Shown: piece by piece, positions 28,823 through 34,993 of the stretch
Numbering within the stretch: position 1 is the first letter of the stretch
Layout of the letters: the number at the start of each line of letters is the position of its first letter
Assembly: GCA_020630335.1 (NCBI GenBank)
Contig: JAHDBN010000004.1
Span: forward strand, 91,260-155,259
Reading direction: 5' to 3'
DNA length: 64,000 bases
Origin: Bacteriovoracaceae bacterium
GTDB lineage: Bacteria > Bdellovibrionota > Bacteriovoracia > Bacteriovoracales > Bacteriovoracaceae
The notes under the pieces: model-generated
What the model saw: only the letters and a program-made list of their open reading frames with translations
Databases searched by the model: none
What the model was told of the DNA's origin: nothing
Program-made: the position numbers and the translations under genes

Positions 28823-30025
28823 ATGTTGAATTTTATTAAAAAACTTGGGCCAGGACTTTTATTTGCAGGAGCTGCGATAGGAGTTTCTCATATTGTTCAA
28901 TCGACTAGGGCAGGAGCTTTGTATAGCTTTGAGCTACTTTGGATTATTTTATTCGCCAACATATTAAAGCTTCCCATTTTAGAGCTTGGGGTGAGATATC
29001 CCATGAAAAAAAAGAAAAGTTTATTGTATGGCTATAAAGATTTGAGTAATTATCATCTTTATTTTTTTATCATTTTAACTATTTTGACGATGTTTATTAT
29101 TCAAGCAGCGATATCAGTTGTAACAGCCGGTATAGTCTTAATATTTTTCCCAAAAAGTATCTCAATCCTAGTTATGTCATTTATAGTTCTATCACTTGCA
29201 GGATTGTTGTTATACGTTGGAAAATATTCTTTCTTAGATAATTTTGTAAAATGGATTGTTATAACCCTTACTCTTACTTGCGTGATTGTTTTCTTCTTGT
29301 CTTTCCAATCTTTTGAAATAGAAAAATCAAGTTTCTTTTTTTCTGAATTTAATTTTGAATCGCATGTAGATATTTTATTCATGATGGCCTTGATTGGTTG
29401 GATGCCTGCTCCTGTTGAAACATCAGTTTGGCAGTCTTTATGGTATGAAGAGAAAAAAGATTTCCAAAACTCATTTTTTGATTTTCATATTGGTTATTGG
29501 ACAACCACAATCTTGGCTATTTTATTCTTGTCATTAGGAGCGATGATTATGTTTTCTAGTGGTAAGATTTTTTCTGCTAAATCTGTTAGCTTTGCCTCAG
29601 AATTAGTTCAATTATTCACTTTTAGTATTGGAGATTGGGCAAAACCAATTATTGCTTTTGCTTGCCTTGCAACAATGGTTAGCACAACTATTACTTGTCT
29701 TGATGCTTATCCTCGTGTTCTGGCAAATAGCTTTAAGATATTAAAGAAAGATTCAAAAGATTATTACAAAGAAATATTATTACTAACAGTGATAGGTACT
29801 TCATTGGTTTTATTTCTTTTCCTAAGAAATATGAAGCAGATGGTAGATTTTGCTACCATTATCTCTTTTTTAGTCACACCTATTATTGGCTATTTTAACT
29901 TCAAGATTTTTAAGACTCTAAGAAATAAATCTTTGTATGATAGGATTCTTTATGGCCTTTATATTATCAGCTTAGGATTCTTTTCTTGCTTTACGTTATA
30001 CTTTCTTTACTTGAAAACTATTTAA
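28823..30025 (+). CDS. Nramp-superfamily divalent metal transporter, atypical
   Basis: The 400 residues form about 11 membrane helices. The N-terminal GPGLLFAGAAIGVSHIVQST matches the start of Nramp-type transporters, but the metal-binding DPGN of helix 1 is replaced by GVSH. The helix 6 region reads MALIGWMPAPVETSVWQS instead of the usual MPH. This fits a side branch of the superfamily rather than a canonical Mn/Fe importer, so the metal is uncertain. It likely imports a divalent cation across the inner membrane. It converges on queF, overlapping by four bases. Confidence 0.85.
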   Translation: MLNFIKKLGPGLLFAGAAIGVSHIVQSTRAGALYSFELLWIILFANILKLPILELGVRYPMKKKKSLLYGYKDLSNYHLYFFIILTILTMFIIQAAISVVTAGIVLIFFPKSISILVMSFIVLSLAGLLLYVGKYSFLDNFVKWIVITLTLTCVIVFFLSFQSFEIEKSSFFFSEFNFESHVDILFMMALIGWMPAPVETSVWQSLWYEEKKDFQNSFFDFHIGYWTTTILAILFLSLGAMIMFSSGKIFSAKSVSFASELVQLFTFSIGDWAKPIIAFACLATMVSTTITCLDAYPRVLANSFKILKKDSKDYYKEILLLTVIGTSLVLFLFLRNMKQMVDFATIISFLVTPIIGYFNFKIFKTLRNKSLYDRILYGLYIISLGFFSCFTLYFLYLKTI

Positions 30026-31690: not shown

Positions 31691-31724
31691 TTGTTTGACA
31701 TGCCAAACAAGGTGTGATTATTAT
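31691..31724 (+). promoter_or_regulatory. Promoter with 20-bp palindromic operator over the -35 (porin/FMN operon)
   Basis: TTGACA at 31695-31700 and TATTAT at 31719-31724 are 18 bases apart, a strong sigma70-like promoter. The -35 lies inside TTGTTTGACATGCCAAACAA (31691-31710), which is symmetric at 18 of 20 positions with 7-bp perfect outer arms and a CATG centre. A dimeric repressor bound there would block RNA polymerase. The sequence is not a Fur box that I recognise. AAGGAG precedes the ATG at 31743. Confidence 0.75.
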
Positions 31725-31742
31725 CTTTTTTAAGGAGAAAAA

Positions 31743-32954
31743 ATGAGAAAAATTATTATGTGCTTGATTCTTGCTCTTCAAGGATTATCTAGTGAAATAA
31801 GTAATAGCGAATTGGAAAGAAGAATTGATCTTTTGGCAGAAGAAATTGAAAGTTTAAAACTTGAAAAAACTTCTAATATTCCATCATATTTGGGGCTTGG
31901 AGAAAGTGCTTCAAAGGTTTACTCACTTAATCAAGGAACTAGCATAGGTGGATACGGAGAAATAACCTTAAGTGTTTTTGATGATGAAAATGAACAAGGA
32001 ACTCCTTCCAATGCTTCATCAAAAGGTGAGGTACTTAGAAACATTATCTATATAGGACATAAATTTTCAAAAGACTGGATTTTTAATAGTGAAATAGAAA
32101 TAGAACATGTGAATGAAATATTTGTTGAGTTTGCTTACCTTGATTATTTATATTCTGATTTATTAAATTTTCGATCAGGCCTTTTACTTCTACCTCTTGG
32201 CTTAGTTAATGAACTTCATGAACCAACATTATTTAATTCAGTGAAAAGACCAGAGGTTGAAAAGTATATAATTCCTTCTACTTGGAGAGAATTAGGATTG
32301 GGCTTTTTTGGAAAGTGGAAAAATCTTAGATATAAAACTTATCTTGTAAATGGAGCAGATGCTGATGGTTTTAGTTCTTCTGGTTTAAGAGGAGGAAGAA
32401 AGAAAGGAGGAGTTGTAAGTAAGTCTAAAGATGGAAGAGTTGCTTCGACTATTGCTCTTGCAACTAGGTTAGACTATTTTTTTGATAATTCGTTTTCTGT
32501 AGGTATTGGCCATTACCTTGGTTCTTCTTCTAGTCAAAGTGCAAACAGTATTGGGACTTCAATTTATCAGGCCCATGGTAGCTGGGAGAAGAAAAATCTT
32601 TATTTTAAGGGATTATTTACGATGGCAAAGCTAAGTGGTGTTAAGGAATACAATCAAAAGCTTTCGAAAAATATAGGAAATGGCCTTCAAGGATATTATT
32701 TAGAAGGTGGTTATAATTTCTTTTTAAAGAAAATGACACTGACTCCTTTTTTAAGGTTTGAAAAATATAATACACATCATAAAGTTCCTTCTGGCGTTAC
32801 AAAAGATTTGGGAGTAGATAAGGAAAACATTACTTTTGGTTTAGCTTTTAAACCATTTGAAAAAGTAGTTTTTAAAGTAGATCATAATTTGAAGAGTACT
32901 AAAGATAATAAGGGAGTAGATGAAACTAATTTTTCTATCGGCTATATTTTTTAA
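31743..32954 (+). CDS. Outer-membrane porin-like beta-barrel
   Basis: The 403 residues start with a signal peptide (MRKIIMCLILALQGLSS). A short coiled-coil stretch (about 23-42, LERRIDLLAEEIESLKLE) follows, as in trimeric porins. The rest is alternating amphipathic strands ending in phenylalanine (FSIGYIF), the outer-membrane sorting signal. It resembles phosphate-selective-type porins in layout, but the substrate is not evident. The FMN-binding gene overlaps its 3' end by 35 bases, and the pair sits behind the palindromic operator. Confidence 0.85.
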   Translation: MRKIIMCLILALQGLSSEISNSELERRIDLLAEEIESLKLEKTSNIPSYLGLGESASKVYSLNQGTSIGGYGEITLSVFDDENEQGTPSNASSKGEVLRNIIYIGHKFSKDWIFNSEIEIEHVNEIFVEFAYLDYLYSDLLNFRSGLLLLPLGLVNELHEPTLFNSVKRPEVEKYIIPSTWRELGLGFFGKWKNLRYKTYLVNGADADGFSSSGLRGGRKKGGVVSKSKDGRVASTIALATRLDYFFDNSFSVGIGHYLGSSSSQSANSIGTSIYQAHGSWEKKNLYFKGLFTMAKLSGVKEYNQKLSKNIGNGLQGYYLEGGYNFFLKKMTLTPFLRFEKYNTHHKVPSGVTKDLGVDKENITFGLAFKPFEKVVFKVDHNLKSTKDNKGVDETNFSIGYIF

Positions 32955-33390
32955 TGTATTAACTAAAGCAGGAATCACTGAGACATTAAAAGGCTTAAAT
33001 CCTAAGAATTGTGAGATTTCTAAAGAAATTAAATATTTAAAAAAGAAAATTGAAGGAAAGAAAATTATCATTAGGCATATAAAAAAATGTAAAGATAAAG
33101 AAAGTCATCTTTATGTAGAGAATCATTTGGTTCGGACAATGAATCAGGTTTTAATGATTGAAGTTTTTGAGGAAAAATTAAAAAATTTAAAAGTATTGAG
33201 ATTCTTGGAGCCTAAGGAGTATCAAGCTCCTTTGTCTTGGATAAAAAAATTATTTGGAAAGAGTCTTCAGGAAATGAGAATGGGAAAGAATATAGATGCT
33301 TTAACAGGTGCGACGCTTACTTCTCATTCAACGGTTGATAATGTAGCGAAAGTTTTAAAAATTCATAAAGAGTTAGAAAAGATTGAATAA
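32920..33390 (+). CDS. Exported FMN-binding (flavinylated) protein
   Basis: The 156 residues have an N-terminal signal peptide (MKLIFLSAIFFNVLTKAG). The C-terminal FMN-binding motif DALTGATLTSHSTVDNVA (about 126-143) is of the kind where ApbE attaches FMN covalently to the last Thr (Thr134). In NqrC, RnfG and their relatives this flavin carries electrons outside the cytoplasm. The middle part (35-110) is basic and unrecognised. It overlaps the genes on both sides, so the three are strictly co-translated. No apbE is in the window. Confidence 0.85.
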   Translation: MKLIFLSAIFFNVLTKAGITETLKGLNPKNCEISKEIKYLKKKIEGKKIIIRHIKKCKDKESHLYVENHLVRTMNQVLMIEVFEEKLKNLKVLRFLEPKEYQAPLSWIKKLFGKSLQEMRMGKNIDALTGATLTSHSTVDNVAKVLKIHKELEKIE

Positions 33391-33787
33391 AACAAAAAGA
33401 TATTTCCATCTAATTCTTATCATAAATTTTATCGTTGGATTTATCTATATCGCATTTAGATATTTTGTTAAGAGGAATACTGACTTTGGCCTCGAATCTT
33501 ATGAGGTTCAAAGATACCTTCAGTATATTCATATAGTTTTAGTTCCTTTTTTGGTTTTTTCTTTTGGTTGTTTATTTAGTGAACATGTTGTTCCAAAGCT
33601 TAGAAAAAATGAAAGAAAGAAAAAGAAGTCAGGATTGAGTCTTGTTATTTTGAGTGTTTTTATGATTGCAAGTGGATATTGTATTCAAATCGTTCTTAGA
33701 GGCTATGAAGTAGTGGGTATCTTCCATTCCATCATTTCTGTTATTTTTATTTTGTTTTATGTTTATCATTTAAGTAAAAAAATTTAA
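33383..33787 (+). CDS. Four-helix membrane protein with bis-His pairs, cytochrome-b-like
   Basis: The TTG start overlaps the FMN gene's stop. The 134 residues form four helices (about 8-27, 44-66, 86-104, 111-130). His50 and His68 lie at the two ends of helix 2, and His115 and His129 at the two ends of helix 4. Helices 2 and 4 should run in the same direction, so 50/115 and 68/129 could ligate two hemes on opposite membrane faces. This is the layout of small cytochrome b electron carriers. It would pass electrons to the flavinylated partner. Heme binding is inferred, not shown. Confidence 0.72.
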   Translation: MNKTKRYFHLILIINFIVGFIYIAFRYFVKRNTDFGLESYEVQRYLQYIHIVLVPFLVFSFGCLFSEHVVPKLRKNERKKKKSGLSLVILSVFMIASGYCIQIVLRGYEVVGIFHSIISVIFILFYVYHLSKKI

Positions 33788-33865: not shown

Positions 33866-34993
33866 ATGAGTGTTTTTAACGATGCTATTCAAAACTTTCT
33901 CGCGCCAATTCAAGATCTTCTTGAAGACGAGAACATATCAGAAGTCATGATTAATGGTCCCTATGAAATTTTCATTGAATCTAAAGGGAAAATTATCAGA
34001 ACGGATAATAGGTTTAAAAATAATGATAATCTTATGGCAGCCATGAGAGCGATAGCTCAGGCAGTAGGGAAAAAGTTTGATGAAGATGAACCACGGTTAG
34101 ATGCTCATTTACCAGATGGGTCAAGAATAGCAGCAGTCCTAAGTCCAATAAGCTCTAATGGAACAGTTGTTTCTATTAGAAAATTTTTCAAAGAAAAGAT
34201 CTTACTAAAAGATCTTATTGAATGGGGAGCATTAAGTAGTGATGCTGCAAGGTTTTTGGATATATGTATTTATCTTGGGAAAAACTTGTTAGTTTCTGGT
34301 GGTACAGGTTCAGGTAAAACGACTCTTTTAAATATTCTCTCCTCTAGGATTAGTGATAACCAAAGAATAATTATTATTGAAGATACTAAAGAGATGAATT
34401 TAGATGATCAACATGTTGTTCACATGGTTACTAGGAAAGAAGATCCTGCTCAAAATATTAAAGCAGTAACGACAAAAGATCTTTTACATTCAGCAATGCG
34501 TTTGAGGCCAGATCGAATTATTGTTGGAGAGGTAAGGGGTGCTGAAGCTCTTGATTTAGTTAATGCAATGAACACTGGCCATGATGGAAGTATGGGCACC
34601 GTTCATGCTAATAATCCAAGTGAAGCATGTTTAAGATTAGAAACACTATGTCTTCAAGCGAAAACATCTATTCCAGCTAACTCATTAAAGCTTATGATTT
34701 CAAATGCTCTGAATATTATTGTACAAACAAAACGTTTCTCTGATGGTAAAAGAAGAGTCTCTCATATCTCTGAACTTTTAGGTATTAACGATAATGGATC
34801 TTATAAATTAAGAGATATCTACAAATGGGTTCAAAGAAGTAAAGATCAAGAGACTGGTGAGCTTATAGGTGAGCTTGTCGCGTGTCAGTATTTACCAACT
34901 TTCTTTGATGATATTAAGGTAAATCGATTACCTTTTCCTAGTTCTAAGTTTGAATCTCCTGATTGGGTGAAAAAACTAAAGAAAGTTGCTTAA
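33866..34993 (+). CDS. cpaF: CpaF/TadA-type secretion ATPase, isolated
   Basis: This is a VirB11-like secretion ATPase of 375 residues. The N-terminal domain has ISEVMINGPYEIFIE and RLDAHLPDGSRIAAV; the catalytic domain has Walker A SGGTGSGKTTLLN, the Asp box IIIIEDTKEMN, RLRPDRIIVGEVRG and the His box GHDGSMGTVHAN. In Tad systems it powers type IVb pilus assembly. No tadB, tadC, cpaC or pilin gene lies next to it here, so its partners are elsewhere. No clear Shine-Dalgarno is visible. Confidence 0.9.
   Translation: MSVFNDAIQNFLAPIQDLLEDENISEVMINGPYEIFIESKGKIIRTDNRFKNNDNLMAAMRAIAQAVGKKFDEDEPRLDAHLPDGSRIAAVLSPISSNGTVVSIRKFFKEKILLKDLIEWGALSSDAARFLDICIYLGKNLLVSGGTGSGKTTLLNILSSRISDNQRIIIIEDTKEMNLDDQHVVHMVTRKEDPAQNIKAVTTKDLLHSAMRLRPDRIIVGEVRGAEALDLVNAMNTGHDGSMGTVHANNPSEACLRLETLCLQAKTSIPANSLKLMISNALNIIVQTKRFSDGKRRVSHISELLGINDNGSYKLRDIYKWVQRSKDQETGELIGELVACQYLPTFFDDIKVNRLPFPSSKFESPDWVKKLKKVA

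Follow-up and report, generated by a model that had tools for sequence, protein, structure and literature searches.

A putative iron-repressed operon encoding a porin, an FMN-binding protein and a small predicted diheme cytochrome in a Bacteriovoracaceae bacterium

What could an outer-membrane porin, a flavin-carrying protein and a small histidine-bearing membrane protein accomplish together when they are encoded in a single run behind one palindrome? The question is raised by a locus in the window, the whole 64-kb stretch of DNA that was analyzed. A preliminary description of this DNA had reported three overlapping genes behind a palindrome, and all of these elements were located. The porin ORF (31743–32954, + strand) encodes 403 aa, the ORF of an exported FMN_bind protein of 156 aa (32920–33390, + strand) shares 35 bases with it, and a third ORF with a TTG start (33383–33787, + strand), encoding a four-helix membrane protein that is a predicted diheme b cytochrome (referred to below as the cytochrome), shares 8 bases with the FMN ORF. 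By position, the overlaps of 35 and 8 bases indicate a single transcription unit. Directly 3′ of the trio is a gene for a CpaF-like secretion ATPase (33866–34993, + strand), which shows no sign of operon membership. We propose that the operon is an iron-repressed assimilatory reductive iron-uptake module with its own porin that feeds Fe(II) to FeoB, and we estimate the probability of this reading at roughly 0.7. Ferric reduction is proposed on the basis of the regulation and the neighboring genes only.

The palindrome, TTGTTTGACATGCCAAACAA at positions 31691–31710 (consensus GTTTGRYATRYCAAAC), has matching bases in 9 of its 10 pairs. It contains a perfect TTGACA, which is followed 18 bases on by TATTAT (31695–31724, + strand); judged by consensus match only (11 of 12 positions), this is the best promoter-like site of the region. 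A protein on the palindrome would block this promoter, so that repression would occur by occlusion. With 3 mismatches allowed, the operator pattern matched once in the window, compared with 0.07 expected matches. The earlier claim that the palindrome is an operator held up in relatives: in each of the eight family operons whose upstream DNA could be read, a site lies a short distance ahead of the porin start or, in locus L025, of apbE. The exact pattern GTTTGRNATNYCAAAC yielded 21 sites in 14 genomes, compared with 2 for the reversed control. These sites stand before feoAB in three genomes (G021, G007 and G035), in one before a TonB receptor gene accompanied by a HugZ-like gene, in one before a PepSY reductase gene, in two before the gene of a beta-propeller protein, and also before a diheme peroxidase-like gene; the remaining ones have no evident link. 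In the genome of the window itself, the sites that rank next are before hemA (1 mismatch) and rrf2–sufB (3 mismatches), and a site with 3 mismatches that overlaps the ribosome-binding site is located directly before feoA. A fifth site, inside a cytochrome gene, is probably due to chance.

Two groups of exported proteins are also encoded behind the operator. One is a beta-propeller/kelch-like protein of roughly 600 residues, present in three genera (L052, L065 and L020:1748–3655) and likely iron-regulated. The other is a protein of 164–172 residues in two genera (L050, about 2065–2559, and L059, 2060–2578), which in L059 has no Pfam match and is followed by a PepSY reductase gene.

The motif also occurs at clusters of other phyla. 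Of the 12 matches scoring at least 15 bits, 10 are confined to the short intervals, 7% of the sequence in all, that immediately precede porin or apbE genes, and an eleventh precedes dtxR in L153. Some loci of this set belong to the family used for training the motif, so it is the new phyla (L141, L149, L153 and L191) that carry weight. The palindromes that precede dtxR in L170 and fur in L120 and L167 do not clearly match the motif, and the version in L172 is degenerate (5.4 bits).

Judged from sequence comparisons, the repressor is most likely the single DtxR-family protein of the window's genome, acting as an iron sensor. This only DtxR shares 43% identity with its L153 counterpart over 114 aa. 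A related palindrome, GTTAGGTATGCCTAAC, is located in L106 just before the start of a second DtxR-type regulator (G013), and an operator site was not found before the family's main dtxR. The second DtxR-type regulator of L105 has a weaker site, and in both L105 and L106 an FTR1-like gene with a cytochrome-type N-terminus is next. Fur was rejected as the regulator in the window's genome, in which no Fur match was found at 98% completeness; there was likewise no match in the relatives G012 and G035, each of these genomes has a DtxR-family regulator, and some other relatives do have Fur. In the window's lineage, DtxR may have taken over iron control from Fur. An Rrf2 protein, whose own operon is preceded by the operator in two genomes, could be the repressor instead.

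The conservation of the trio was examined at several distances. Of the 59 genomes searched, 13 encode the FMN protein, and in all nine same-family genomes in which it is short rather than multidomain, the genes for the porin and the cytochrome adjoin the FMN gene, so the three-gene order is kept among these relatives. Within the window's genus the distribution is patchy: the operon is absent from three sister genomes, and two of these have FeoB, so Feo uptake does not depend on the operon. Across 192 genomes of the phylum, each of the 25 cytochrome matches adjoins an FMN_bind gene, 17 of them together with the porin and eight with apbE instead. A second form of the cluster, FMN_bind–ApbE–cytochrome without the window-type porin, is observed in other families of the phylum (L029, L216 and L219–L224); in L029 it stands behind a gene for a DUF6662 outer-membrane protein (order OMP DUF6662–FMN–ApbE–cytochrome).

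In a first contig scan with the FMN protein as query no match was obtained. The wider search used the porin alignment against a collection with one genome per species, in which at least 571 stretches encode porin relatives. Among the best 80 of these loci, the fetched DNA contains the FMN gene in 78, the cytochrome gene in 69 and apbE in 48, and the full trio is present in 69, from about a dozen phyla; some of the loci without the cytochrome are cut off by a contig edge. The taxa in the locus titles include Bdellovibrionota groups, Acidobacteria, Planctomycetota, Gemmatimonadota, Verrucomicrobia/Kiritimatiellia, Myxococcota, Zixibacteria, KSB1, Elusimicrobia, Nitrospiria, Schekmanbacteria, Desulfuromonadales and one gammaproteobacterium. 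In three loci (L167:5672–6307, L183:5794–6276 and L187:5818–6369), the gene that follows FMN encodes a membrane protein that is also small but of another kind, with conserved histidines of its own (ExxHxH...H, e.g. LEVTHFHLF...SHLLLF), as if the slot of the membrane carrier were filled differently there.

Several of these clusters are contiguous with iron genes. The order dtxR–porin–apbE–FMN–cytochrome–feoA was found in L153 and L172 (Gemmatimonadota) and in L170 (Zixibacteria), in the last of which feoB comes next; L130 and L141 have feoB–porin–FMN–cytochrome, and L120, L140 and L167 have fur–apbE–porin–FMN. A scan of the flanking genes of 61 loci identified FeoB five times, a DtxR-type repressor four times, Fur three times, PepSY twice and VIT1 once. 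A direct search placed FeoA, FeoB, DtxR or Fur beside 15 of the 80 clusters, compared with 1.4–2.4 expected under a rough assumption, a comparison that is only indicative because the loci are not independent. Large ORFs upstream of some clusters were considered as FeoB and rejected, being polymerase, AAA/TPR, peptidase and EF-G genes instead.

Outside the family, four in five loci lack an iron gene in the surrounding 4 kb or so, and some homologues may therefore pass electrons to other acceptors. This scarcity of adjacent iron genes at most clusters in other phyla is what would be expected of a respiratory or redox-balancing system, a flavin counterpart of the porin–cytochrome conduits, in which hemes and FMN relay membrane electrons to an acceptor from outside that the porin admits, and which is under iron control only because it contains heme. 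Flavinylated proteins do serve respiration (PMC8238504). However, the operator is common to feoAB, TonB, PepSY and Fe–S/heme genes, several phyla have feoA or feoB inside the same gene run, and the operon encodes neither a terminal reductase domain nor a multiheme protein, all of which makes a respiratory role unlikely for the window operon.

The regulator could also be read differently, since Mn sensors exist in the DtxR family and the window's DtxR relative could sense manganese. The trio would then supply periplasmic reductant for another metal or for heme/copper homeostasis (e.g. Mn or Cu) under an Mn-sensing DtxR/MntR protein, and an Nramp-like gene 1.7 kb upstream in the window would fit such a role. 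We consider this highly unlikely: no operator precedes the Nramp gene, which most genomes with the trio lack, the feo, suf and hem targets indicate iron, and manganese uptake requires no reduction. The Nramp-like gene itself (28823–30025, + strand) encodes a divergent transporter (50 bits), with similar ones in two same-genus genomes and in G012, and it was discarded as an operon partner because it lacks the operator and is not conserved with the trio. The preliminary description had left the substrate as a metal or something else taken in by the porin; within that range, the operator regulon and the neighboring genes point to iron.

The identification of the first gene product as a porin was borne out by its structural model (pLDDT 79, with lower values in the loops), which shows an N-terminal helix followed by a 16-strand-type barrel and which in Foldseek searches matched OmpU (E 2.8e-14), OprP (1.2e-12) and OmpC (3.7e-12). 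The modeled barrel has the general-porin fold of the 16-strand trimeric type, and the porin may likewise be a trimer. PDB sequence searches gave no significant relative for the porin, the FMN protein or the membrane protein. The porin is the best conserved member of the trio, with 41–50% identity within the family, and E117, E119, E121, H122, E129, E157, H159, E160 and H278 are unchanged over 80 porin sequences. E117, E119 and E121 occupy alternating positions of one strand and should therefore all point into the pore, as an acidic ladder opposite in charge to the arginine ladder known from OprP. Such a ladder would select metal cations, and the cassette as a whole suggests that some porins are specialized for iron.

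The FMN protein narrowly passes the Pfam FMN_bind model (PF04205; 23.1 bits, with a cutoff of 22). The TGATLT motif that had been noticed in it spans residues 129–134 (33304–33321, + strand), and its GAT core is invariant or nearly so, being kept in 73–75 of 78 homologues. The protein is predicted from its hydrophobic N-terminus only to be exported, and its sequence predicts an ApbE substrate with the flavin on Thr132. When apbE was looked for elsewhere in the genome, a single copy was found on a different contig (C3:81218), where an NqrC-like FMN_bind gene lies about 4 kb away, so this ApbE would serve both the NqrC-like protein and the FMN protein of the operon. Its presence alone is no specific evidence. 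Relatives, however, carry apbE in the operon itself, as in L029 and in family relative G007 (L025), with the order operator–apbE–porin–FMN–cytochrome in the latter.

The third protein comprises 134 residues with histidines at positions 9, 50, 68, 115 and 129. The last four, which had been singled out beforehand, are present, occur without exception in homologues from nine family relatives and one other family, and do not vary in an alignment of 52 sequences from many phyla, in which the only other invariant positions are two glycines. The structural model is confident (mean pLDDT 90), with helices at residues 3–28, 41–74, 78–103 and 108–133, and it places the histidine pairs on helices 41–74 and 108–133. 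Positive charge is carried by the N-terminus (+3), the helix 2–3 loop (+7) and the C-terminus (+2), and the remaining two loops are neutral, which indicates that helices 2 and 4 both run from the periplasm to the cytoplasm. In the modeled topology these two helices are parallel, with His50 and His115 level at the periplasmic end and His68 and His129 level at the cytoplasmic end, in line with the expectation that the four histidines face each other. The predicted geometry is the arrangement of two stacked bis-His b hemes, and the protein is predicted to be a diheme b cytochrome with a four-helix bis-His core, which would place it among the smallest predicted transmembrane diheme wires.

The top structural matches of the model are designed 4D2 proteins (Z 12.2–13.3) and hydrogenase-1 cytochrome b (12.0), followed by cytochrome b6 (11.0) and formate dehydrogenase-N (10.3), and the first unrelated matches (voltage sensors and TRP channels) appear at Z of about 9; Foldseek alone gave weak matches. 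Because helical bundles easily reach middling Z scores, the fold matches are partly generic and the invariance of the four histidines is the stronger argument. The Ni_hydr_CYTB model (PF01292) scored 28.9 bits, below its curated cutoff of 30.1, and matches 6 of the 52 homologues at E 0.01, and DUF4405 (PF14358) gave no match for the window protein and weak matches for 4 of the 52 (best E 0.0017). By these tests the protein falls outside both families, and it appears to be covered by no Pfam family. A rhodopsin-like or transport protein in place of a cytochrome is hardly credible: the best Pfam match is Bac_rhodopsin (30.3 bits, above its cutoff), but this assignment was rejected as only one of the 52 homologues fits that model, and there are four helices instead of seven, the conserved residues are four histidines at heme-like positions and the structural matches are diheme bundles.

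The gene content, its conservation, the operator with its shared regulon and the adjacent iron genes are direct observations. The pathway that we infer from them, including its heme and flavin occupancy, electron direction, substrate, porin cargo and repressor identity, would operate as follows. When iron is scarce, the iron-sensing repressor would leave the operator that covers the −35 box and the operon would be transcribed. Iron, free or weakly chelated, would cross the outer membrane via the porin. The four-helix protein would take electrons from the membrane pool, probably from quinol, and pass them via two bis-His b hemes, from His68/His129 near the cytoplasm to His50/His115 near the periplasm, and on to the FMN that ApbE would attach to Thr132 of the exported protein. 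The flavoprotein would reduce Fe(III) to Fe(II), and FeoB, encoded elsewhere in the genome, would import the product.

Uptake through FeoB requires that Fe(III) be reduced outside the cytoplasm beforehand, and in many cases the enzyme that reduces inorganic iron has not been identified; for Bradyrhizobium this has been stated explicitly (PMC10760861). One concrete and testable candidate for such a reductase is this compact cassette, which combines a pore with a flavoprotein, the transferase for its flavin and a small predicted diheme protein, and which in many phyla is associated with feo genes and iron regulators. To a broader reading we give somewhat less than even odds: that this is an unnamed, widespread and complete reductive iron-uptake pathway, composed of an iron-selective porin bearing an acidic/His ladder, a ferric reductase in the periplasm that is flavinylated, and a minimal diheme cytochrome of 134 residues, which works with FeoAB under a DtxR-type operator kept across phyla and supplies the inorganic ferric reductase missing from the described Feo pathways.

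No named system with exactly this trio had been known to the preliminary description, and the open-access literature likewise gave no description of the combination and no paper that joins a porin, ApbE and FMN-binding in one iron system; porins are not mentioned in the two main flavinylation papers (PMC8238504, PMC11334425). The closest parallels each share a part of the operon. DUF4405 proteins and FezC, for which b heme has been shown and which are linked to iron through ferrosomes, are also small membrane proteins with four central histidines encoded beside apbE and a flavinylated protein (PMC11334425). The window cytochrome would function in the manner of these proteins. Unlike it, DUF4405 has six helices and FezC is modeled as a dimer, and their clusters have no porin, the word being absent from that paper (PMC11334425). 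The PepSY- and MsrQ-like flavinylation clusters similarly combine a heme-type transmembrane carrier, an extracytosolic FMN_bind or DUF2271 protein, apbE and an iron transporter or iron regulation (PMC8238504). In contrast to these clusters, the carrier here is a separate family of 130–150 aa without a Pfam model and the partner transporter is Feo instead of VIT1 (PMC8238504); the operon also has a dedicated porin, its best conserved part.

The ferric-siderophore reductases FsrB/FoxB likewise reduce Fe(III) in the periplasm to supply FeoAB (PMC10760861), and a PepSY protein is under the same operator in one relative of the window's bacterium. However, FsrB is a single COG3182 protein, described without a flavoprotein or porin partner (PMC10760861). 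The trimeric porin OmpC of Escherichia coli is an outer-membrane iron path for FeoB (PMC7315122), as is proposed for the window porin, but OmpC is a general porin encoded apart from any reductase (PMC7315122). The four-helix core with two bis-His b hemes that is predicted here is also found in cytochrome b6 and in the cytochrome b subunits of hydrogenase-1 and formate dehydrogenase-N; compared with these proteins, the window protein is only about 10–14% identical, is much shorter and has no catalytic partner complex. In summary, by analogy with these systems the mechanism would be akin to that of the PepSY/MsrQ and FsrB iron reductases, with the minimal cytochrome and the dedicated porin as its new elements.
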